Positions 3,219-53,407 of a stretch of 64,000 nucleotides of DNA are shown here, piece by piece. Where the stretch lies: positions 1-64,000 of the IMG/VR virus record IMGVR_UViG_3300043397_000067; one strand, given 5' to 3'. Position numbers and translations under genes: made by a program. Positions within the stretch are counted from its first letter, which is position 1, and each line of letters begins with the position of its first letter. Under the pieces are notes generated by a model that searched no databases, was not told where the DNA came from, and worked only from the letters and a program-made list of their open reading frames with translations. Origin of the DNA: a virus.

Positions 3219-3407
3219 ATGTTCGCATCTTTCACCCAAGACCCGCTCAAACTGGCCAAGCACGAGCTTGAAGCCGCTAAGCGGGAACTCCTTACAAGTC
3301 AGTCCACACTTGAGATGGCACAAGCGTCAGTGCAGTACAACGAAGCACGTATTGCCCGACTTGGTGATACCATCCTCAAGTGGGAGTCTGACAAACTGAA
3401 CAGTTGA
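3219..3407 (+). CDS. Small coiled-coil protein
   Basis: The product has 62 residues and is almost entirely one amphipathic helix with heptad-like spacing of Leu, Ala and Ile (residues 8-58). ATG 3219 comes 3 bases after the winged-helix stop, so the two are probably co-translated. No family recognised. A dimerising partner of the upstream regulator would fit but is only a guess. Confidence 0.6.
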   Translation: MFASFTQDPLKLAKHELEAAKRELLTSQSTLEMAQASVQYNEARIARLGDTILKWESDKLNS

Positions 3408-3427
3408 GTGTTGTGTAGATACAACAC
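3408..3427 (+). other. Hairpin after gene 3219-3407
   Basis: A 7-bp stem, GTGTTGT with ACAACAC, closes the loop GTAGAT right after the stop codon. No U-tract follows, so it is not a classical terminator; it may protect the 3' end or slow RNA polymerase. Downstream, AGGAGAG precedes a two-codon frame (ATG AAA TAA at 3440) and then an 11-codon frame (from 3449, ending TAA); both could be leader peptides but nothing proves translation. Confidence 0.4.
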
Positions 3428-3466
3428 AGGAGAGACGTTATGAAATAAATGAAAATTTTTTCAAAG

Positions 3467-3499
3467 GTGACACACACAGCCTAAAAATGTGTGTAGAAT
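3467..3499 (+). promoter_or_regulatory. Candidate promoter for gene 3554-3838
   Basis: A -10-like TAGAAT lies at 3494-3499, preceded by TGTGTG. The best -35-like hexamer, GTGACA (3467-3472), is 21 bases away, too far for a good sigma-70 spacer. The same core, GTGTAGAATT followed by CAAT, recurs at 3892 after the tandem terminators, which makes a phage promoter motif more likely than chance. The start point is unproven. Confidence 0.45.
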
Positions 3500-3508
3500 T
3501 CAATCCCA

Positions 3509-3523
3509 GCAGCACAGTGCTGC
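3509..3523 (+). other. 5'-terminal mRNA hairpin
   Basis: GCAGCA and TGCTGC form a 6-bp stem with loop CAG. If transcription starts 6-8 bases after the TAGAAT at 3494, this hairpin is at the very 5' end of the message, a common way for phage mRNAs to resist RppH/RNase E decay. It is followed by an A-rich leader and the SD AAGGAA. Confidence 0.4.
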
Positions 3524-3553
3524 AAAACAAAACCCAACCAAGGAACCATTATC

Positions 3554-3838
3554 ATGGCTGCAATTCAAACCTCTATCGCAATCCCCGCTTTGAAGCGTTT
3601 CGCTTCCAAAGGCTCGTCCTATGACTTCGCTGGCCTGCGCGCTGGCACCGAAGACTGCATCGCAGAAATGGGTGTCGTCAACGCTGGCAAGGCCCATGCA
3701 CGGCTGTCGAGCGCCGTTGTGGCCTACCGCAAGCGTAGCGGTAGTAAGGACAAGTTCACGGTGCGTACCTTCAAGAACGCAGAAGGTCAGGACTGTGTGG
3801 GTGTGTGGAAGCTGGCAACGCCGGAAGCCGCTGCCTAA
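3554..3838 (+). CDS. Small basic protein in its own transcription unit
   Basis: The 94-residue product is basic and Ala-rich with the regular look of a compact folded domain (GTEDCIAEMGVVNAGKAHARL, then RKRSGSKDKFTVRTF). I do not recognise the family. ATG 3554 has SD AAGGAA at an optimal distance. The gene is framed by a candidate promoter with a stabilising 5' hairpin and by two terminators in a row, and its codons are GC-richer than the neighbours. This is the set-up of an abundantly made early protein. Nucleic-acid binding is plausible from the charge but not shown. Confidence 0.75.
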   Translation: MAAIQTSIAIPALKRFASKGSSYDFAGLRAGTEDCIAEMGVVNAGKAHARLSSAVVAYRKRSGSKDKFTVRTFKNAEGQDCVGVWKLATPEAAA

Positions 3839-3856
3839 ACCCTGCTAAGGGTTTTT
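3837..3856 (+). terminator. Terminator 1 of a tandem pair
   Basis: AAACCCT and AGGGTTT form a 7-bp stem with loop GCTA, followed by TT. The 5' arm overlaps the stop codon of the gene just before it. Confidence 0.65.
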
Positions 3857-3862
3857 CCTAAG

Positions 3863-3889
3863 AAAACGGGGGCTTCGGTCCCCGTTTTT
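3863..3889 (+). terminator. Terminator 2 of a tandem pair
   Basis: AAAACGGGG and CCCCGTTTT pair over a loop containing CTTCGG, followed by a T-run. This is a textbook Rho-independent terminator and isolates the upstream gene from the RNA region that follows. Confidence 0.85.
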
Positions 3890-3891
3890 GC

Positions 3892-3900
3892 GTGTAGAAT
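3892..3900 (+). promoter_or_regulatory. Candidate promoter of the ncRNA/tRNA unit
   Basis: GTGTAGAAT with TTCAATTC after it repeats the core of the candidate promoter at 3494. It sits just after two terminators and before the structured RNA, exactly where a promoter is needed for the RNA and tRNA to be made. The upstream region is the terminator T-run and no consensus -35 is visible. Confidence 0.4.
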
Positions 3901-3957
3901 TTCAATTCCTGTCATATTTTCAGTGGTATGTGTACACGTTAGGTCTATTAGCTTAGG

Positions 3958-4173
3958 CTGCAAACTGGGTAACCGGGAGATATACAGCCACTATCAGAAC
4001 GGCGCTGTGGAAAGACACAGTAAATGCGGACCAATTAGGCTGTAGCACGGGGAAGCTCTGTCATGTAGCACGAGGCGTATGCCGGTAGACTCATGCAGAA
4101 TGTCGGGAACAGCCAAGCTAGTATGAAAACACTAGCCCGTTCTGATAGTGGTAAAGAAAATAGCGGTTTGCGG
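3958..4173 (+). ncRNA. Candidate structured non-coding RNA
   Basis: No protein frame of quality is present here, but the RNA can fold deeply. CTGCAAAC (3958-3965) pairs with GTTTGCGG (4166-4173) as an outer stem with one G-U. Inside it, 3988-4002 and 4137-4151 form a perfect 15-bp helix, CCACTATCAGAACGG with its complement. That helix closes a multi-branch loop with three arms: CTGTG/CACAG (4005-4020), GGCTGT/ACAGCC (4038-4114, holding a further hairpin ACGGGG-AAG-CTCTGT) and GCTAGT/ACTAGC (4117-4136). An 8-base segment of the 3' strand (4146-4153) can instead pair with 4209-4216, right beside the tRNA, so the RNA may switch. It matches no RNA class I know. Confidence 0.6.
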
Positions 4174-4217
4174 GTCAAGTAGAGGGTCACCCCGCAGTGA
4201 GCAAGTAATACCACTAC

Positions 4218-4293
4218 GTATCGGTAGCTCAACTGGCAGAGCAGTGGCCTCCAAAGCCGAAGGTTGAGGGTTCGACTCCTTCCCGGTACGCCA
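4218..4293 (+). tRNA. tRNA-Trp (CCA anticodon)
   Basis: The 76-base cloverleaf has acceptor stem GTATCGG/CCGGTAC (one G-U), D-stem GCTC/GAGC, anticodon loop CTCCAAA giving CCA, T-stem GAGGG/CCTTC with loop TTCGACT, discriminator G and an encoded CCA end. The anticodon stem is weak: its outer pair is G-A and the next is U-G. It lies between the structured RNA and long hairpins and 0.76 kb upstream of rtcB. Confidence 0.92.
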
Positions 4294-22092: not shown

Positions 22093-22114
22093 AAGCCCTC
22101 TACGGAGGGCTTTT
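22093..22114 (+). terminator. Terminator after the MazG-like gene
   Basis: AAGCCCTC and GAGGGCTT form an 8-bp stem with loop TACG, followed by TTTTC. It separates the tRNA/exonuclease/MazG unit from the polymerase unit. Confidence 0.8.
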
Positions 22115-28055: not shown

Positions 28056-30081
28056 ATTTAGGCAGCATGAGTCTAAGGTAGTAAACTTTACATCGGGCCT
28101 TAACGTCATCCGTGGCGCTAACGAAGCAGGCAAGAGTACTATCTTTGAGGCTATCATGTACGCCTTCTACGGGGCACGGGGTCTGCGTGAGTCGTTGGAT
28201 GATGCCGTGACATGGGGTAACCCGGCGTCGCAACTCAGGGTTAAGTTAGTGTTCACTCACTTAGGCGTCAAGTTCACCATCACCCGGTCAAAGTCGGGCG
28301 CAGAGCTTGTCGGACCCGGAGTGACGGCCTCGGGCCAGTCTGAGGTCACCAACTTCGTCACGGCCTTGTTTGGTGCCCCGCTTGACGTTGCCAAGGCCAT
28401 CCTCATGGCGAAACAAGGCGGCTTGCAGGAATCCCTCGACGGCTCTAGTGTACGGATGATTGAGCAACTTGCTAATGTCCAACTGATAGACAAGCTCATT
28501 GAGTGGGTGCAGCTTGACTTGTCTACTGGAAACACTAGCTCGCTGGTCAAGCAACTACAAGACTACCGCGATATGGTAGCCCCAGTGTTAGATACCGCAG
28601 AAGCTGACGCTAAAGTATCTACACTAACTTCCCGAGTTGAGGCAGTTAAAGCAAACCTTGAGTTGGTAGAAGCTAAAATCGCTAACCTGCAGTGGGCACC
28701 ACCTGTGATAGCAGCTAGGGCGGACTATAACGCTAAGCGGGAAGCTTTGGATAGTACGCTTACGCGCCTGCAAACTACACTGCCGTCAGTACCAGAGCCG
28801 GTAGAAGATAACTCCAAGGAGTTAGAAGCAGCGGCTGCTGAACAGACTCGCAACAAGGAGCTTCAAGGCAACTACATGAAGTATGCAGCTTTCGTACAGC
28901 CTAAAGTCGATAGTAAATACACATCAAGAAGTGAGGCAGACGCTCACCGTGAGAAACTTCAAGAAGAAATTCGCGCTATTACGAAAGGGTTATCAGATAC
29001 TAGCACTAAGATAGCGGTAGAACTATCAAAGAAAATTACAGAAACAGCCTGCGGACTATGCGGTAAAGACTTATCACAGGTGCCAGAAGTTGTAGAGAAG
29101 AATAAGGTAATAGATAGCACCATCGCGGCCCTTAAGGTTAGTAAAGCTAGCTTAGAGGCAAATCTTAGCGCCTATAACCTGCAACTGAGCGGTTTGATAG
29201 AGTTGCTTAAAGCAGACTCTGCTGCTAGAAATACAGCAGCAGGTATCCCCCACCTTGAGGAATATCCCACCTTTCCTGCCACCTACGGATGGGCTGGCGG
29301 TATTCCAGTAGTAACTTACGTTGACTATGCAAAACAGTTAAAGGAGCTTACTACAAAGCTTGCACAAAGAGAAGCTGCTTTGCATCAGTATAACAAGGTT
29401 CAGACGGCTATAGAGGTTACTAGGGTCAACATATCAAGGTTGTACAACCCTGTGCAATCAGAAGTTGACATGGCTAATGAAGCATTTGCTGAGTTGACGT
29501 TAGCAGCTACACGTAAGAATGAATCTATTGACGAGCGTAGGCGGCTGGAATCTCAGCTTTCTGAGGCTAGGCACACCCTAGCGATTTTGGAGACGCGCCA
29601 TACGGAGCAGATGAAGGCTTTTACACAGGCTCAATCTCAGGCCTCGGTAGTAGAGTCTAGTATCAGGGAGATGACAGATAACAATCTCTTGATTAAGAAG
29701 CTGAGGGAAGCAAGGCCGTCAGTAACTAACCGCTTATGGAATACTGTACTTGGTACAGTAACCAGTTACTTCTCACAACTTCGTGGTGTTCATACAGTAG
29801 TAGGGCGTAAAGATGACTGCTTCACGCTTGACGGCAAGAAGCATACATCCTATAGTGGTTCTACCCAAGACTGCCTTGGCCTTGCCATTCGTGCTACCCT
29901 GCAAAAGACCTTCATGGCCGGCTGTGACTTCACCACGTATGACGAGCCTGCAAGTGGGTGTGACTTAGCGCGGGAAAGCGATATGCTAGCGATGCTATCG
30001 ACTTGTGGGTTTGAGCAGGTACTGCTCGTCACCCACAGCGACTTAGCAGACGCTTACGCTACTAACTTCATCCAGATATAG
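28030..30081 (+). CDS. sbcC: SbcC/Rad50-like ATPase (gp46-type)
   Basis: From ATG 28030 the product has 683 residues (the frame is open further up inside sbcD). Walker A GANEAGKST near the start, Q-loop MAKQGG, two long coiled-coil arms, the zinc-hook CGLC at about residue 340, signature SYSGSTQDCLGLA, Walker B TTYDEPASGCD and H-loop LLVTHSD. Shorter than E. coli SbcC, similar to T4 gp46. The stop lies in the arm of the 30080 terminator. Confidence 0.93.
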   Translation: MLNELTLTKFRQHESKVVNFTSGLNVIRGANEAGKSTIFEAIMYAFYGARGLRESLDDAVTWGNPASQLRVKLVFTHLGVKFTITRSKSGAELVGPGVTASGQSEVTNFVTALFGAPLDVAKAILMAKQGGLQESLDGSSVRMIEQLANVQLIDKLIEWVQLDLSTGNTSSLVKQLQDYRDMVAPVLDTAEADAKVSTLTSRVEAVKANLELVEAKIANLQWAPPVIAARADYNAKREALDSTLTRLQTTLPSVPEPVEDNSKELEAAAAEQTRNKELQGNYMKYAAFVQPKVDSKYTSRSEADAHREKLQEEIRAITKGLSDTSTKIAVELSKKITETACGLCGKDLSQVPEVVEKNKVIDSTIAALKVSKASLEANLSAYNLQLSGLIELLKADSAARNTAAGIPHLEEYPTFPATYGWAGGIPVVTYVDYAKQLKELTTKLAQREAALHQYNKVQTAIEVTRVNISRLYNPVQSEVDMANEAFAELTLAATRKNESIDERRRLESQLSEARHTLAILETRHTEQMKAFTQAQSQASVVESSIREMTDNNLLIKKLREARPSVTNRLWNTVLGTVTSYFSQLRGVHTVVGRKDDCFTLDGKKHTSYSGSTQDCLGLAIRATLQKTFMAGCDFTTYDEPASGCDLARESDMLAMLSTCGFEQVLLVTHSDLADAYATNFIQI

Positions 30082-30107
30082 TAAAGGGAGCCTAGGCTCC
30101 CTTTACT
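30080..30107. terminator. Bidirectional terminator at arm convergence
   Basis: A perfect 28-base palindrome (AGTAAAGGGAGCC with its complement, centre TA). Its left arm starts within the sbcC stop and its right arm reaches the holin stop. Short T-runs occur on both strands, so it can stop early rightward and late leftward transcripts. Confidence 0.75.
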
Positions 30108-30696
30108 ACTTAGGTTCAGCGGACTTTGGAGGTCGGGTCCCGAACCAGAAAAGGGATACTGTAGTCCAAACATATAAAATAGTAGAGACTATTTGTACAA
30201 CAATACCGGTTATCTGTTCAGGTGTAAATGAAATACCATGAACGTCCATCAGATTACGTGCCCACACAAACATGTAGGTCACAAGTACGCAAAGATACGC
30301 TGTCATCCCGGGGCGGATAAAGCCGCGCAGGAAGTCAACGAAACCCATCATCAAGGTCACAGCGCCACCCACAAAGCCGGGGCGGCTCTGGGCACCTTTA
30401 TCAAGGTAGGTAGCCTTGTCATTCTCAAGTGCAGCAATCAAGGACTTGGAGGCGGCTTCATCGCCTCGCGCCTCTGCATCAACCTCTGCCATACTGACTT
30501 CGGCAGCGTTACGAGAATCCGCTCTAGCAGACTCAAGCTTTGACAGCTCAAGCGTGTTCTGGTGGTTCAGCTTGATGATTTCAATATCTTGCTTCTTATG
30601 CTGCAAGTCAAAGTAGCGTTGCAGCAATACTCCGATAAGGCCAGTAGCCCCGCCAGAAAGAACACTTGTAAACAGTCCACCAATAATTTCTAGCAT
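30106..30696 (-). CDS. Holin-like membrane protein with cytosolic helix
   Basis: The 196 residues hold an N-terminal hydrophobic segment (IIGGLFTSVLSGGATGLIGVLL), a long charged helix (30-90) and two or three membrane helices (GGAVTLMMGFVDFLRGF, MTAYLCVLVTYMFVWARNL, ITGIVVQIVSTILYVWTTVSLFW). This layout occurs in phage 3-TM holins found beside endolysins. It is the last gene of the late arm, overlapping the endolysin gene by 7 bases. Confidence 0.7.
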   Translation of the reverse strand: MLEIIGGLFTSVLSGGATGLIGVLLQRYFDLQHKKQDIEIIKLNHQNTLELSKLESARADSRNAAEVSMAEVDAEARGDEAASKSLIAALENDKATYLDKGAQSRPGFVGGAVTLMMGFVDFLRGFIRPGMTAYLCVLVTYMFVWARNLMDVHGISFTPEQITGIVVQIVSTILYVWTTVSLFWFGTRPPKSAEPK

Positions 30697-44900: not shown

Positions 44901-45677
44901 CTCTGCATACTTAGCCTCCTCTGCAGCAGCAGCCGCATAAGTACTAGCTATCTCTGCCCGCTTTTGCTTATTTCTTTGCTTATCAATAAGGTCCCAAGCA
45001 GCCTCACGAGAGGCAGCAGCTTTATTAAGCTCTGCTTGTTCAGCAAGTAGAGCTTTAGAGGCTACTCCAGCCTCTTTCAAAGCGTCTCTGTAATCTCTAG
45101 CAGCCTTCACAGTAGCCTCTGCAATCAGCTTACGATCTACACCAAGCTCAGTACTGGCCCCAGCCACTGTCTCAGAAAGGTTTCCTTTCTTATCTCGTGG
45201 AAAACTTACGCGGCTAAATACGCCACCAGACAGCAGCGACTCGCCGTAGGAAGCAAGTGCTTGTGATCTTATACTTTTGTAAGAAGCTTCTTTTGCTCTG
45301 TCGTACTCATACTGTAGAGTTAGCTTAGCAGTACCCAAAGATTCTCTAAGAGTAGCAGTTATTTTCGCTATAGAGTTAGTAAGAGCGCCATTGGCCGAGC
45401 TACCTACATTCTCAATAAGCTTTGGATAACTACTTAATGCCTTAGCTACCTCCTGCATTGCAGAAGTACTATCCTTAGCTAAGCCCTGCAGCATAGTCTT
45501 AGCATCCCCAGTTCTCTTCTGGGAGGCCTCTATAAAAGCATCTAATTGGGCTTTTGCGGTATTTAGTTTTGCCCTGTTAAGCGCGCCTAAGCTAGCCGTC
45601 AACTCGTCTAAAGCTTTTGTAGCCTTATTCGTCTCGTTGATAGTCTGCGTAAAGCTTAACTGTAGATCGTCGCTCAT
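38982..45677 (-). CDS. Tape measure protein
   Basis: The 2231-residue protein sets tail length. At about 0.15 nm per residue it predicts a tail near 330 nm. The N-terminal 650 residues are helical and contain a tandem duplication. A TP901-type core lies at about 690-960 (VAGTAAEDMTKLKAAAVDSA, GITGSAAGTAVRQMY, LGNERGLKSM). Hydrophobic helices follow at about 1010-1110. More coiled coil follows, and the C-terminus has AFASGGYHRGGYRLVGEDGP, common in tape measures. SD CCGGAG before ATG 45677. Confidence 0.95.
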   Translation of the reverse strand: MSDDLQLSFTQTINETNKATKALDELTASLGALNRAKLNTAKAQLDAFIEASQKRTGDAKTMLQGLAKDSTSAMQEVAKALSSYPKLIENVGSSANGALTNSIAKITATLRESLGTAKLTLQYEYDRAKEASYKSIRSQALASYGESLLSGGVFSRVSFPRDKKGNLSETVAGASTELGVDRKLIAEATVKAARDYRDALKEAGVASKALLAEQAELNKAAASREAAWDLIDKQRNKQKRAEIASTYAAAAAEEAKYAESVKYATNNLNSWQSNKEKARREEDKRVSKALDASAAMQIQGQERALDDSLAIAKSKFRNSQKVANELYRQGELNASFAHQQALVNQAIEAGKTTGARTLLGRMVSAQGMLGVAGGESTAAKKFGSDMVEAVKAGAVEKLSGSVNAVDQNTVNRKLIAEATVKAAREYRDALREANQESKTLASGISDNIAARGRELQQASNYVKVSKPGSAGMEELARLEAATKARASSGLADLDARDKARRDKTKADNIALDASAAKEILEHEKRLDDAAALAKAQYRNAQKAANESYRQGELNANYRHQQALVDQAIKAGETTGAKALLSKMVSAQGMLGVRGGESAAVGKFGSDMVEAVKSGATERLAGAMATLGKNTGDVTPKLFSLSNALKSLGGDMNTAHSAARGLASGFGLLWLTWGQMAPLLAGSALSFGIAKSYQAGKELSLVFADIQYVAGTAAEDMTKLKAAAVDSANGAAGPLEMAKGMRSLALAGLDAKEQLDALSTVRAFSNVGNVNIEKSAESLVAIGSAFGYKAKEFGVVADVIGAAAASSMASIENMTEAFKASSVIAQTYGVDIRDVATSLALLANIGITGSAAGTAVRQMYVELTGATAKGKKTLQEFGIQVWDLQNNKMKGLPDILGQLTTKLSGLRFDQQIELLQRLGNERGLKSMSADLIAFAQNAAAAGKDVQTEFAKIADAINNAAGFTVLADIGKRQAFGYVFKDTAADIERSLVKAFSASEGAATKLMRTLGDILSSDRFVGAVTELIDVVTRAGQVLADHIELIVGLGKAYLAYKMVMLGLVATGGLMALVTQVTLLANAIKAKGITMAATTVVAEGLSGGLKTLGASAATATFGMTALSRVLGVLGPLGVLLTIAGTAYTLFGDKAKSGLDKARENSDEFFKNTSESFKKEIERLEAKTNAWSLYASEIDKATNAQVRMAAEELRSKRQPVEDELRKDAEFKAKLAKNNQSPAYNRVNEGLAKTAKDELDKYKAETESQVNALLADAGRIKSLSKLDEIQSEASRKARNKREAGTGMLSTDEDMGRIYDNSGKINAAYSRDLGLQRKLMQDELDMLGYAHKAKELSDVEFYVKRTATIKRFNDEADKIETDSLNKLYKEYTSVYKAIGDQYDKEKDPKKKSNLNERLTALGEAYDSSASKIIDDSIARQSDETKRLANETYEATGEINRMVKANEEWMQSYSKRVNKASAVEAARAAAEKQGPRAVAIVEAQMKVQEDFSDRIASTTTKITELTAEQAKYDELATSSGGNPEYIEMYRRKGLEIERLRAEIAKLSKDEATYISKAGSTAGAKFDSDQLEAERQKLATSWKTTSKDIADSLFDAIIGVGDKSGKKLRDQIQRALMAPLRLFLDPIINDLAATIATALNPTGAAAAAQGAGTGKGSAFSALSAGKSVFDALNSGVSTSIANGFTKLAGNSMGEKLGVSYYDGNAYQLTGVGAQLGQVLGAVGGAAAGVSLKNAISGGFKVSNFADAIGTAVSLWFGPIGGIASGLFNRAFGKKYDGSGIAGTFGAGDGFSGYSYTDYEGGWFSSGGRDTSALDPRIVKQLSNQFQLVKTQAALQATTLGASAEALVNFTHSFAFATDGLNGDQINAQIKSAFEGAGEAMAQLILGTTEYSQIGETASATLSRLSGGLNSVNSAMLLLGKATYSASMQSAQYAQNIINAVGSQSEFESAVRGYFDAFYSNTDKSSSKLSVFTSELSKLGISTVPMTRQAFRQLVEAQDLTTESGQAVYGGLLKLSSAFIDMTSAAVSSADSLMQAAEKVMKDASPALTLQQQIGQFDKNYTLALSTSGTTQAEYLTKLADALPDISTALKENSATREQWLASVSVLANKAMFAAKAVDPTLTIPAFASGGYHRGGYRLVGEDGPEIEATGPAMYYNASQTKSMLGGSDDGNVSGLIKELIAQIDLLRYETRATATHTAKMAKLQNDWDGRGLLIRNDADTPITTHAV
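43790..45150 (-). repeat. Tandem duplication inside the tape measure gene
   Basis: Two units of about 220-230 codons start with RKLIAEATVKAAR.YRDAL (near 45140 and 44450) and end with KFGSDMVEAVK.GA (near 44500 and 43830). The match is clear at protein level and still visible in DNA, so the duplication is fairly recent. Confidence 0.75.
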
Positions 45678-47932: not shown

Positions 47933-48346
47933 TTAGTAGGTCTTGTCGCACCAGAAGGGCACTATCACTTGGTACTCAACCCTATTCTTGTCAGGATGGG
48001 CACCTCCCATCATGGCCATATAGGTTCTAACAGAGCCAAGTGTTTTTCTCTGTAAGCGTTCATAGAAGTGACTCAGTAGGGCATTAGCCTTGGCAGAGCC
48101 CTCTCCCTCTCGGACAGAAGCCCCAAGCAGTATCTGCCCCATAATTCGGTGTACCGGATTATCGGATATATCAGCTTGGTAACCATCAATAAGGTTTACT
48201 TTGACGCATAAGAATGGGTCAGTAAGTTCATACCTAGACTCAAGTACTCGGTTGTCATACTCAATGCTAAGCGCCCAAGCTGTAAAACTTGGGGCAGCAG
48301 CTACTACAGCAGTAGTAATGTCTTGTCTGATTGAATCAAGGCTCAT
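47933..48346 (-). CDS. Tail terminator protein
   Basis: 137 residues, alpha/beta, in the usual place between the gp10-like protein and the tail tube. Pattern SIRQDITTAVVAAAPSFTAW, then FLCVKVNLIDGY and a C-terminal strand (RVEYQVIVPFW). ATGA overlap with the preceding gene. Assigned mainly by position. Confidence 0.65.
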   Translation of the reverse strand: MSLDSIRQDITTAVVAAAPSFTAWALSIEYDNRVLESRYELTDPFLCVKVNLIDGYQADISDNPVHRIMGQILLGASVREGEGSAKANALLSHFYERLQRKTLGSVRTYMAMMGGAHPDKNRVEYQVIVPFWCDKTY

Positions 48347-48846
48347 TTTGCATACCCGAATTTAGTTTTAATAGCAGCCGCTACTGCAGGTATCCCACCA
48401 GCCCTTATATTAGCTTCTCTTATCTTAACAAGGCCAGCTTCCATTGCTTCTGCTATGGGCTTAGTATTAACAAGCAGTACCTTACTGTTCCACTTTATAT
48501 TAGCAATGATTTCTTTATTATAGTCCACCCGCGGCTTAAATATTGGGTCTCCGGCTACTTTAGGTTTAACCTGTTCACCAACGTAACCGTATGAGCCAGT
48601 CTTACCAAAGCTAGCATCATGTCTTGCTCTATCAGGTATCTTAGAGTAAGCTGGATTTTTATACCCAGTTATCTCTACATACCAGTTAGCAGCAAGATCG
48701 CCTGTATACTGAGGAGTAACCCTCCAAGCGTACTCAAGTACTTTAAGCGTATGCATTTGAACATACTTAGTCGCAGACCTCGTTATTTTATTTTTAGCAG
48801 CCTGCGTCTTATCTTTCCACCTGTTTACATTACCAGTTACTATCAT
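48343..48846 (-). CDS. HK97 gp10-like head-tail joining protein
   Basis: 167 residues with the family look: helical N-terminus (AAKNKITRSATKYVQMHTLKV), RVTPQYTGDLAANWYVEI, then a conserved long C-terminal helix (AEAMEAGLVKIREANI). Basic. Overlaps neighbours by 4 bases. Confidence 0.72.
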   Translation of the reverse strand: MIVTGNVNRWKDKTQAAKNKITRSATKYVQMHTLKVLEYAWRVTPQYTGDLAANWYVEITGYKNPAYSKIPDRARHDASFGKTGSYGYVGEQVKPKVAGDPIFKPRVDYNKEIIANIKWNSKVLLVNTKPIAEAMEAGLVKIREANIRAGGIPAVAAAIKTKFGYAK

Positions 48847-50204: not shown

Positions 50205-50396
50205 TTACTTCTTTTTGGAGTCTTTGGTAGGCTCAGTAGGCGCTTCGGCCTTGATGGTGGGCTGTCCTTCAATCCATGCGTTCGATTTAACCTTCACAGG
50301 CTCTCCCGGATTGAATACGTGACCGCTGATAGGGTCAGCAAACGCAAAGTTGCCGGTATTGGTGTGAACAATGCCGTCTTCATCAATGATTTTCAT
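50205..50396 (-). CDS. Small head protein
   Basis: ATG 50396 with SD GAGGAA gives 63 residues; the upstream in-frame extension overlaps the spacer before the homing endonuclease and is rejected. The C-terminal half is Pro/Lys-rich. Role unknown, but it lies in the head gene order after the capsid protein. Confidence 0.55.
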   Translation of the reverse strand: MKIIDEDGIVHTNTGNFAFADPISGHVFNPGEPVKVKSNAWIEGQPTIKAEAPTEPTKDSKKK

Positions 50397-50501
50397 AGAT
50401 TCCTCAGTTTGTGGAGCCCCGGATTTTACCCAAGGAAGGATGCAATTTTCGTGTACACTATGCGCCAGTTTATAAATTCTTACCAATGAATAGGTGACCT
50501 A

Positions 50502-52145
50502 GTGAACAAGTTTGAGGAATTCGTAGCAAAGGCTGGCCCAGTCCATGAGGGTAAGTACACATACTTATCTATAGGTACTGGAAAACGTAGAAAGATAGTT
50601 TATCAGTGTTCTACTCACGGAGTCAAGGAGCAGGACGCTACAGCACACCTAAGAGGTGCTGGATGTGTGGACTGTTCCTATGAGCTTAGAGCCGCTAATA
50701 AAAAACTAACGCTAGAGCAGGCTATTAAAAGGATAGGGTCAAAACATAATAATAAGTACAGTTACTTAAGAATTGGCACTAACTCAGCCAATAAGTCCAC
50801 TGTAGTGTATGTATGTAATAAACATGGAGAGCAAGAGCAGTCCCTAAATGACCACGCTAACGGACACTCATGCTGTGGCTACGATACTTTAAAAGTAAGT
50901 AACTCTGATAGGTATGAGGACTACTTAGCTAAAGCTATTAAAATCCATGGCAATAAATACACGTATAAACCGTCTGATATAGAAGGTTACTTTTTAATCA
51001 CATGCCCTACACATGGAGAGTTTCATAAGAGATTTACAAGCCATGTACACTCCGAAGAAGGGTGTAAGAATTGTGCTTATGAAGCCTTCGGTAAGTCCAT
51101 AAGGTACGACTTTGAAGACTACTGCAGTAGAGCATCTACAGCTCATAATAATAGATATACATATACTGAACTTATATACGGTAAAGGTCGTACACTTATA
51201 AGAGCTGTATGTAGAGAACACGGAGAATTCATACAGAATGCTAAAGACCACTTATCTAAGCTGACTAACTGCCCTAAGTGCAGTAATAGCGGTGTGTCTG
51301 CACCTTCTATAGAGTTATCTGAATACTTAAGCCAGTTCGGTTTAGTAGAGAGTGAATATAGAGTAGAGGGTTGCAGGTTAAGATGGGATATAAAATATAG
51401 TAATACTTTAATAGAGTACGACGGCCTATACTGGCATTCGTCACAGCATAAGAGTAACGCGTACCATAGCGAAAAAAGACGCTTAGCAGAGTCGTCAGGA
51501 TTTAGTCAAATAAATATATTTAGTGATGAGTGGACTAATAAGAAAGCTTTAGTAAAGCGGCTGTTGCTTAATAGGCTTGGATTATCAACAGAGTCTACAG
51601 TCTATGCTAGAAATACTGTAGTATGTATTGTAGATTCAAAAAAAGCTAGTGAGTTCCTAGACTTATACCATATACAGGGCTATAAAAAATCTAGTCACTA
51701 TGTTGGATTAGTATATAGTGGAGAAGTAATAGCTATAATAGGCTATGAAATGCGTGAGTCTGGCAGAGGTAAAACAACGTCTAGCAGCCACATGGAAATT
51801 ACCCGGTACACAACAAGCTGTTCTGTACCGGGTGGGTTCAGTAAATTACTTAGCTTCCTTATAAAGAATAGCCCCGACTTAGTTGAGGTATATACATTCT
51901 CAGATAAAAGGCTATTTTCTGGTACGTTATACGAACGCTGTGGGTTCAAAAAAGTAGCCACTGTAAGACCTAGCTACTTCTACACTGATGGGGTTAGTAG
52001 GTATGACAAGTCTTCATACCAAAAAAGTAAGTTAGCTACTATGACCAACAAAGTTGGCACTGAGGAAGAAATGGCTGCTTCTCTTGGGCTATACAGGGTT
52101 TATGACTGCGGTAAAGTGAAGTGGTCTAAGCGAATCAGCAAATAA
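50502..52145 (+). CDS. Free-standing homing endonuclease, Vsr/EDxHD type with zinc modules
   Basis: 547 residues, starting at GTG 50502. Residues 1-270 hold four copies of a zinc-binding module with the pattern C..HG, then C..C at its end (DUF723-like), for example IVYQCSTHG and ITCPTHGEF. Residues about 285-350 form a Vsr-like nuclease (LIEYDGLYWHSS, then INIFSDEW). The C-terminal 170 residues match the extra domain of Hef-like phage homing enzymes (SSHMEITRY, VYTFSDKRL, GTLYERCGF). The gene is on the strand opposite to the late operon, and its codons are much AT-richer than the neighbours. Both point to acquisition from elsewhere. Confidence 0.85.
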   Translation: MNKFEEFVAKAGPVHEGKYTYLSIGTGKRRKIVYQCSTHGVKEQDATAHLRGAGCVDCSYELRAANKKLTLEQAIKRIGSKHNNKYSYLRIGTNSANKSTVVYVCNKHGEQEQSLNDHANGHSCCGYDTLKVSNSDRYEDYLAKAIKIHGNKYTYKPSDIEGYFLITCPTHGEFHKRFTSHVHSEEGCKNCAYEAFGKSIRYDFEDYCSRASTAHNNRYTYTELIYGKGRTLIRAVCREHGEFIQNAKDHLSKLTNCPKCSNSGVSAPSIELSEYLSQFGLVESEYRVEGCRLRWDIKYSNTLIEYDGLYWHSSQHKSNAYHSEKRRLAESSGFSQINIFSDEWTNKKALVKRLLLNRLGLSTESTVYARNTVVCIVDSKKASEFLDLYHIQGYKKSSHYVGLVYSGEVIAIIGYEMRESGRGKTTSSSHMEITRYTTSCSVPGGFSKLLSFLIKNSPDLVEVYTFSDKRLFSGTLYERCGFKKVATVRPSYFYTDGVSRYDKSSYQKSKLATMTNKVGTEEEMAASLGLYRVYDCGKVKWSKRISK

Positions 52146-52171
52146 ATAAGGGACCCTAGGGTCCCTTATTT
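52144..52171. terminator. Bidirectional terminator between homing gene and capsid gene
   Basis: A perfect 28-base palindrome, AAATAAGGGACCC and its complement with centre TA. It ends the + strand homing gene and the - strand capsid transcript at one site, which protects each from read-through by the other. Confidence 0.75.
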
Positions 52172-52189
52172 ACTCAATGAACATTATGT

Positions 52190-53407
52190 TCAGGAGATGG
52201 TAAGCGCGTCAAACGGCTTCAAGTCGGTATCGCCCATCGTGCGGTAGACTTCCTCAGACCACTGCATCGTCATAGCTTCGCTGCGACGCAGAACGAAGGC
52301 TTCCGAAGCCGTGTAGTTAGCAGACACGTTCTGCACACGGGTGATAGCGTAACGGCTATCAACAGCGTACACAGTGTTTGCAGGCACTGGACCACCGTCG
52401 GTAGCTGCATCCGTGATGAACCACACCACATCGTTACCAAAGCCGACATTTGCAGCACGGGCTTGTGGGTCAATACGAGCCAAGGTTGGGTCGTAGTTGG
52501 TAGTACCGGGGCGACCGGTACGGCTTTCAACCTTCAGGTACGTGTCAATGTCGCCCATTACGTGAGTAACGGTACGGAACTTGCGGTTACGGGCAAGGAA
52601 CTTGACCCAAGCTTTGTGGGTGAGCACACCGCCAGTAGCAGCAGCATCCAAGCTGGTAGAAGTCACAGCAGACACAGCACCCACGATCAGGTCACTGTTA
52701 CCAGTGAATAGATCAGCAATGTACTGGTACACGCGACCATCTTTTTCCACTTCCAGATAGCGGCCCATCGTCAGGGCAACCATGTCCAGAGTAGAGGCGC
52801 GCAGAGCCTGCTGAGAGAACTCAAGCTGGATACCGTAGGTAGGCAGCTTGCGGATACGGTCGGAGGTGCCGAAGCGCATGATGGTCGGGGCTTCTGCAAA
52901 CTGAGCGATACGCTGAGCGCGGGCTTGCTCAGGACCGTTCAGGGTGCCGTAGCTGATAACGGGCTGCTCGAAGTTTTCGTTAGCAATGGACAGCTCTTGG
53001 CCAACCATGCCGTTGAAAACGTTGCCGTCCGTAGTACGGTCTTTCATCATCTTGTCTTCGACAAGTTGAATCAGAGCAGCAGGGAACAGGGTACGAGAAG
53101 CGCTACCGAAAGGCGTACCGGAATCACGAGCGTTACCGGCAGCTTCAAAGCCGCTAGAACCGTCCAAGATTTCAGCCACCGTCTTGTCACGCAGACCAAA
53201 AGCGTTGTCACCGGCGACCGACAGGCCTTCCGAAGCAAACAACTGCTGCGCGGCAGTACCGAGCTTAGCGTCAAAGTCGCTGAACTCACGGTTGATATAG
53301 GCTGCAACGCTCAGATTGGCGCGTTGAGCGTTCTGGTACATCTCAGCGCCAAGGCGCTCAGGTGCTACGTGCTGGATAACGCCAGCGGTGTCTTGGTAGA
53401 ATGCCAT
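52190..53407 (-). CDS. Major capsid protein (HK97 fold)
   Basis: 405 residues. N-terminal helical region 1-110 (possible delta/scaffold part), then the HK97-like pattern: FEQPVISYGTLN (E-loop), RKLPTYGIQLEFSQQALRAS (spine helix), AWVKFLARNRKFRTVTHVMG and C-terminal VYAVDSRYAITRVQN. SD AAGGAG before ATG 53407. Strong codon bias as expected for the most abundant protein. Confidence 0.87.
   Translation of the reverse strand: MAFYQDTAGVIQHVAPERLGAEMYQNAQRANLSVAAYINREFSDFDAKLGTAAQQLFASEGLSVAGDNAFGLRDKTVAEILDGSSGFEAAGNARDSGTPFGSASRTLFPAALIQLVEDKMMKDRTTDGNVFNGMVGQELSIANENFEQPVISYGTLNGPEQARAQRIAQFAEAPTIMRFGTSDRIRKLPTYGIQLEFSQQALRASTLDMVALTMGRYLEVEKDGRVYQYIADLFTGNSDLIVGAVSAVTSTSLDAAATGGVLTHKAWVKFLARNRKFRTVTHVMGDIDTYLKVESRTGRPGTTNYDPTLARIDPQARAANVGFGNDVVWFITDAATDGGPVPANTVYAVDSRYAITRVQNVSANYTASEAFVLRRSEAMTMQWSEEVYRTMGDTDLKPFDALTIS

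Follow-up and report, generated by a model that had tools for sequence, protein, structure and literature searches.

A Free-Standing Vsr-like Endonuclease with a Mom-like Domain behind a Phage Capsid Gene: A Plausible Intronless Homing Endonuclease with Built-In Target Modification

Results and Discussion

The DNA analyzed here, which we call the window, is a 64,000-nucleotide stretch of the virus record IMGVR_UViG_3300043397_000067. Its major capsid gene is separated from the following head gene by a gene on the opposite strand, whose 547-residue product is likely to be a homing endonuclease of the Hef-like/EDxHD kind, free-standing and without an intron. The protein combines four zinc modules and a Vsr-like nuclease with a C-terminal domain that is homologous to Mom, the DNA adenine modifier of phage Mu. 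The joint reading of this protein as an intronless homing endonuclease that would also modify its own target is new, and on the sequence comparisons presented below we consider it plausible. The element is a new and better dissected member of a known family, in whose annotations the Mom-like domain is not mentioned.

The Endonuclease Gene and Its Setting

The gene and its two neighbors are as follows.

50502..52145, + strand: putative homing endonuclease gene, 547 aa; intact ORF, antisense to the late operon; PHROG_559 (E 7e-86) and PHROG_3339 (E 6e-69)
52190-53407, - strand: major capsid gene (flank); phrog_3922 major head protein (E 8e-24)
50205-50396, - strand: next head gene, small (flank); ATG at 50396; orthologues in L001, L002, L011, L168, and L211

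The start codon is GTG, preceded by a possible Shine-Dalgarno sequence (AGGTGA, 50492-50497). According to the ORF list, the reading frame sits in the gap between two intact genes, and since no gene is split, an endonuclease borne by an intein or an intron, including a group I intron, was ruled out. Full-length similarity, the same domain order, and a 52-member alignment place the protein in PHROG_559/3339, annotated as HNH or homing endonuclease. By tblastn, relatives of this family occur in 832 phage records, every one of them below 60% identity. Nucleotide-level relatives of the window were not found among annotated phages, and the window's own 80-kb virus record contains no second family copy, no GIY-YIG domain, and no separate Mom gene. 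A promoter scan gave 5 promoter-like sites where 4.6 were expected, none of them convincing at the 5' end of the endonuclease gene.

A first reading of the window, made from its letters and ORFs (the sequence-only reading), had described the gene as AT-rich. At 39.2% GC it is indeed well below the window (48.3%) and the capsid gene (55.6%), but another late gene, 48343-48846, is nearly as low at 40.7%, so that composition is weak as proof of a foreign origin and is not decisive here. That an assembly artefact or a spurious ORF lies behind the gene is scarcely credible: although the evidence comes from metagenomic contigs only, a diverged phage (L002) has a homologous gene at the identical site, and the 52 family members have conserved motifs. 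We therefore set this explanation aside.

Zinc Modules, Nuclease, and Mom-like Domain

In the AlphaFold2 model, computed from 52 sequences (mean pLDDT 87.8), residues 1-262 form four repeated zinc modules, residues 263-362 a small nuclease, and residues 370-547 a compact C-terminal domain.

50607..51281, + strand: four CxxHG...C..C zinc modules, residues 36-58, 105-125, 168-191, and 237-260; from motif, AF2 model, and DUF723 (E 2.8e-4)
51288..51587, + strand: predicted Vsr/EDxHD nuclease domain, residues 263-362; from profile, fold, and conservation
51609..52142, + strand: Mom-like GNAT-fold domain, residues 370-547; from Foldseek, hhalign, and aligned residues

The sequence-only reading had proposed an opposite-strand, Vsr-like enzyme with four zinc modules in this position. 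All four modules are present, and module 2 is probably degenerate, with its last two cysteines adjacent (CC) where relatives have CxxC. The nuclease assignment holds as well. Searched against the PDB, the family profile matched I-Bth0305I (3r3p) at E 7.4e-6; the nuclease domain, modeled alone, gave the same protein as its best Foldseek match (E 7.6e-4), and in the VIA fold comparison I-Bth0305I (Z 10.1 over 93 residues) was followed by Vsr (1cw0, Z 8.2). The catalytic residues are kept in the nuclease set D296, E305, H312, H322, K325, and D342/E343, in which E305, H312, and K325 are invariant and D296 lines up with the family aspartate once a 2-residue gap is allowed. The modeled fold and the conserved acidic and histidine residues thus point to an EDxHD/Vsr-fold nuclease.

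What the description as a zinc-finger Vsr nuclease missed is a third of the protein, residues 370-547. The top Foldseek match of this C-terminal domain is phage Mu Mom (8bv8, E 4e-6). In the VIA comparison Mom scores Z 13.9 over 151 residues, but generic GNAT enzymes tie with it, reaching up to 14.6, and the fold alone therefore indicates a GNAT rather than Mom specifically. Homology to Mom is instead decided by sequence: an hhalign comparison of 13 family members with 6 Mom proteins gave Prob 97.7 and E 1.8e-12, and the Mom PHROG (PHROG_1384) is matched directly by 8 of these 13 members. The Mom residues H58, E108, R111, S124, D149, and Y159 correspond to H390, E432, R435, S447, D468, and Y477 in the window protein; all but S124 are invariant positions in the Mom set. 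When the window protein is searched by itself against Pfam and NCBIfam, no Mom or GNAT match appears; the homology surfaces only through the family profile and the fold.

Whether this domain is an enzyme bears on its role. It may be a GNAT-fold scaffold without transferase activity that binds DNA or flips an adenine and so aids target recognition, a reading to which we give a substantial, if less than even, chance. GNAT folds get reused, and the position of Mom S124 (PDB entry 8bv8 calls the S124A mutant inactive in its title) is Ser in 28 of the 52 family members (the window included) and mostly Gly or Asp in the others. Against a mere scaffold, the positions invariant in Mom are retained across the same 52 members (H390 in 50, E432 in 44, R435 in 49, D468 in 47, Y477 in 51), and the Mom-like domain is the best conserved part of the protein between the window and L002 (50% identity, compared with 37% for the nuclease and 31% for the zinc part). 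A literature search of sources outside subscription journals found no paper that pairs a homing endonuclease with Mom or a GNAT domain.

A Palindrome between Convergent Genes

52143..52172, both strands: perfect 30-bp palindrome where the endonuclease and capsid genes converge, presumably a terminator for both directions; from folding of both strands

The perfect palindrome reported at the 3' end of the gene is real and, at 30 bp, longer than had been stated. It begins at the endonuclease gene's own TAA and folds strongly on the two strands (z -5.2 and -4.9). It had been taken to let both genes end at one site. The capsid stop codon (52190-52192) lies 17 bp past it, however, so a single site is possible for transcription only. 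Lacking a run of 5 T in 8, the palindrome does not score as a classical terminator.

The window has only one other 30-bp perfect palindrome, TAGTAAAGGGAGCCTAGGCTCCCTTTACTA at 30079-30108, which has a similar core, folds strongly on both strands, and is located at the meeting point of the convergent early (+) and late (-) gene blocks. Its placement at this junction supports the view that this phage routinely uses bidirectional terminators. In L002 and in L197, a phage outside the close clade defined below, the hairpin behind the capsid gene can likewise serve both strands. A gene inserted antisense at such a terminator would leave both neighbors unharmed, which may explain why this spot is invaded repeatedly.

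An Empty Site in a Sister Phage

The sequence-only reading had proposed that relatives lacking the gene be compared to find the insertion point. One such relative is L001 (IMGVR_UViG_3300022744_001001), which is ∼93% identical in DNA to the window on both sides of the insertion.

50440..52189, unstranded: segment without counterpart in L001, where 68 bp (L001 7219-7286) stand instead
52190..52417, unstranded: 3' end of the capsid gene with raised divergence from L001, a candidate co-conversion tract; from nucleotide comparison

The L001 contig is contiguous across the site, the 68-bp spacer carries an intrinsic terminator, and no copy of the endonuclease gene was found anywhere in the 34.6-kb contig. 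The gene is thus a present/absent polymorphism between close relatives at a defined point. Had all relatives carried it with equal composition, the proposal of an invading element would have failed; some relatives are without it, and its composition differs.

The flanks of the insertion are not alike. The capsid genes of the window and L001 differ at 3-4% of positions over nucleotides 1-990, at 12% over 991-1140, and at 29% over 1141-1215. In the last 75 nucleotides, 22 differences are observed where 4.9 are expected from the site rates of relatives, a number reached in none of 20,000 random draws (P < 5e-5). This tract is one-sided, occupies the last 225 bp, is mostly synonymous, and peaks directly at the insert; the head-gene flank is clean, with 2 differences in the first 100 bp and identity restored at once. 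The pattern resembles what co-conversion beside a double-strand break would leave, and it would fit gain of the gene as well as its loss. From the raised divergence at the capsid end, the target likely lies in the spacer or near the capsid stop codon, within the 3' end of that gene. When 12 related capsid genes were used to polarize the change, the window tail agreed with the outgroups slightly more often (14 sites versus 6), but sites in the body of the gene lean the same way (19 versus 11), which leaves no basis for calling a direction. A phage combining a window-type capsid tail with an absent endonuclease gene was not found.

Two further observations came from this comparison. The capsid terminator of the sister phage includes 22 bases (L001 7242-7263) that are identical to window 22093-22114, which is intergenic there. 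The highest local divergence from L001 in the compared stretch, 29 per 100 bp, is at window 45335-45434 within the tape-measure gene; it adjoins a non-aligning region and is another likely recombination edge.

A Post-Capsid Hotspot and the Family at Large

Related phages were gathered by tail-tube and capsid profiles, and the close clade was defined as 13 lineages with a readable post-capsid region, three near-identical contigs being counted once. In 8 of the 13, endonuclease-like genes lie opposite to the late genes in either of the gaps flanking the small head gene. They are of three unrelated kinds.

Window, L002: Vsr-Mom type
L161, L166, L011: GIY-YIG type
L168, L169, L211: short HNH-like proteins (assignment below the Pfam cut-off or by motif only)
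L001, L162-164, L165, L167, L171: empty

The site is therefore also a hotspot for other nuclease families, which goes beyond the sequence-only account. The L002 homologue (39-42% identity) has the identical site and orientation as the window gene; the two proteins are sisters (SH-aLRT 99) and have diverged like the neighboring genes (37-46%). A closer relative of the window endonuclease than that of L002 was not found in IMG/VR.

Outside the close clade, L197 has a Vsr-Mom gene antisense behind the capsid gene, and L172 has one there on the same strand. The post-capsid members do not all go back to one origin; the family tree, a quick one with long branches, puts L197 apart from the window, L002, and L172, which implies at least two arrivals. 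An apparent capsid-endonuclease fusion in L172 was dismissed, as the reading frames show two separate genes. Acinetobacter phage LAPP1, Klebsiella phage KpTRp1, and L071, whose capsid genes are unrelated, also have a family member in the post-capsid position. Among 95 neighbor proteins of ∼80 family members, 21 matched tail tube, up to 7 tail sheath, and at least 6 major capsid proteins.

We also note some particular arrangements. Members recur in either orientation beside a 162-aa tail tube gene (L080, L081, L085, L087, L094, L096, L099, L102, L103, L111, L125, L128, L130, L136, L141, L153, and L159), and L102 has two, one on each side of it. In Pseudomonas phage PA5oct (L076 2297-3979), a member lies between two pieces of a DNA polymerase gene. 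In L170, a 310-aa ORF (3355-4286, + strand), open at the contig end and without a Pfam match, directly follows the capsid gene, in the place that the small head gene or a nuclease takes in relatives. In five related phages, the GIY-YIG or HNH-like hotspot gene is preceded by an ORF of 48-90 aa for a ribbon-helix-helix protein (Pfam RHH or HicB-like, E 2.6e-7 to 0.03), which overlaps it by a few bases or nearly so. The pairs, all on the - strand, are listed here; they look like a small repressor-endonuclease cassette with an interchangeable kind of nuclease.

L161 6249-7213
L166 6264-7392
L011 6556-7541
L168 6480-6946
L211 602-1070

Proposed Mechanism and Its Rivals

Family membership together with the presence/absence polymorphism suggests that the gene would home by double-strand break and repair. 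A long target, most likely at the capsid gene's 3' end or in the terminator spacer, would be bound by the zinc modules and cut by the Vsr-like domain in co-infecting phages without the gene. Repair from the carrier genome would then copy the gene, the shared terminator palindrome, and adjoining capsid DNA into the cut genome, and the antisense position behind a strong terminator would leave the capsid gene and the next gene unbroken. Intronless homing had already been suggested, and that proposal is partly supported by the gene-less sister phage, the capsid tract, and the occurrence of this homing family beside conserved genes, but the account was incomplete. A free-standing gene need not destroy its own target, so the carrier needs another form of immunity. 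The Mom-like domain could provide it by modifying adenines of the carrier genome in or close to the target, adding to the sequence changes of the capsid tract. Such self-marking would fit free-standing endonucleases, which often cut a gene that their genome keeps intact. Taken by itself, the protective role in the carrier is a tentative suggestion; the full picture of a one-protein restriction-modification homing endonuclease, in which the zinc-guided Vsr nuclease would cut the intact capsid target of rivals while the Mom-type domain marks its own copy, is rather unlikely.

The same parts could serve a different purpose. Iyer et al. 2021 (PMC7824862) proposed restriction-modification for the Mom domains fused to nucleases in jumbo phages and counted five momylating enzymes in PA5oct, a phage that also has a member of the Hef-like family. 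Applied here, the Mom-like domain would protect the phage, the nuclease would attack unmodified host or competitor DNA as restriction or superinfection exclusion, and the gene would move passively. The chemistry of this reading is compatible with that of homing and only the purpose differs, yet we judge it improbable: members occur at many spots, with several per genome, and as a rule immediately adjoin conserved genes for structure or replication; the presence of four zinc modules hints at a target both long and specific; and a sister phage without the gene plus a flanking tract is what homing predicts. Somewhat less improbable, though still unlikely, is that the gene was already in the ancestor of the window and L002 and diverged along with its surroundings, that L001 lost it by recombination, and that homing may have ceased. 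The sister relationship of the window and L002 proteins, their neighbor-like divergence, and the capsid tract, which accounts for loss equally well as gain, all agree with this history; it would require repeated gain or many losses in a clade where five other lineages are without the gene and others have unrelated nucleases, and the window gene is intact with its key residues retained. Homing by the free-standing endonuclease is the reading we prefer.

Comparison with Known Systems

The nuclease domain is shared with I-Bth0305I, described as belonging to a group I homing endonuclease family of the EDxHD kind (PMC3943268), but the window gene is without an intron and has the added zinc modules and Mom-like domain. 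Mu Mom shares the fold, the homology, and most invariant residues with the C-terminus; it is a stand-alone, genome-wide modifier without a nuclease, whereas the window domain is fused to a putatively site-specific one. That fusion recalls the Mom-REase proteins of jumbo phages, whose published account has no mention of homing and no insertion-site evidence (PMC7824862); PA5oct carries members of both descriptions. In position, the closest published parallel is T4 segD, which is free-standing and antisense between the capsid and vertex genes, is enclosed by terminators, and is of undetermined activity (PMC2988022). It is a GIY-YIG nuclease, unrelated as a protein. Clustering of homing endonucleases around essential genes, those for capsids among them, has been published (Barth et al. 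2023, PMC10448857). The T5orf172/DUF723 endonucleases and HEG islands of ICP1 share with our case the DUF723-type zinc repeats, this clustering, and multi-class loci, but have a T5orf172/GIY-YIG nuclease and no described Mom-like domain (PMC10448857). The Hef-like homing endonucleases of PA5oct, Salmonella phage SB28, and Aeromonas phage Ah1 have the length and domain order of the window protein; they differ in identity (27-34%), in insertion site, and mostly in phage type, and their annotations are silent on the Mom-like domain.

Significance

The escape of carriers from their own free-standing homing endonuclease is usually ascribed to differences in sequence. If the nuclease indeed brings along a domain that modifies DNA, this would be another answer to the problem of avoiding self-cutting: self-immunity would rest on modified bases rather than on insertion into the target, and would do so throughout a family present in hundreds of phages. 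It would also link homing endonucleases to restriction-modification systems, two classes that have been studied separately. The pair of L001 and the window yields a concrete predicted target of ∼300 bp (L001 6991-7286). With three unrelated kinds of antisense nuclease in one clade and the parallel of T4 segD, the spot behind the capsid gene is a recurrent genomic niche.
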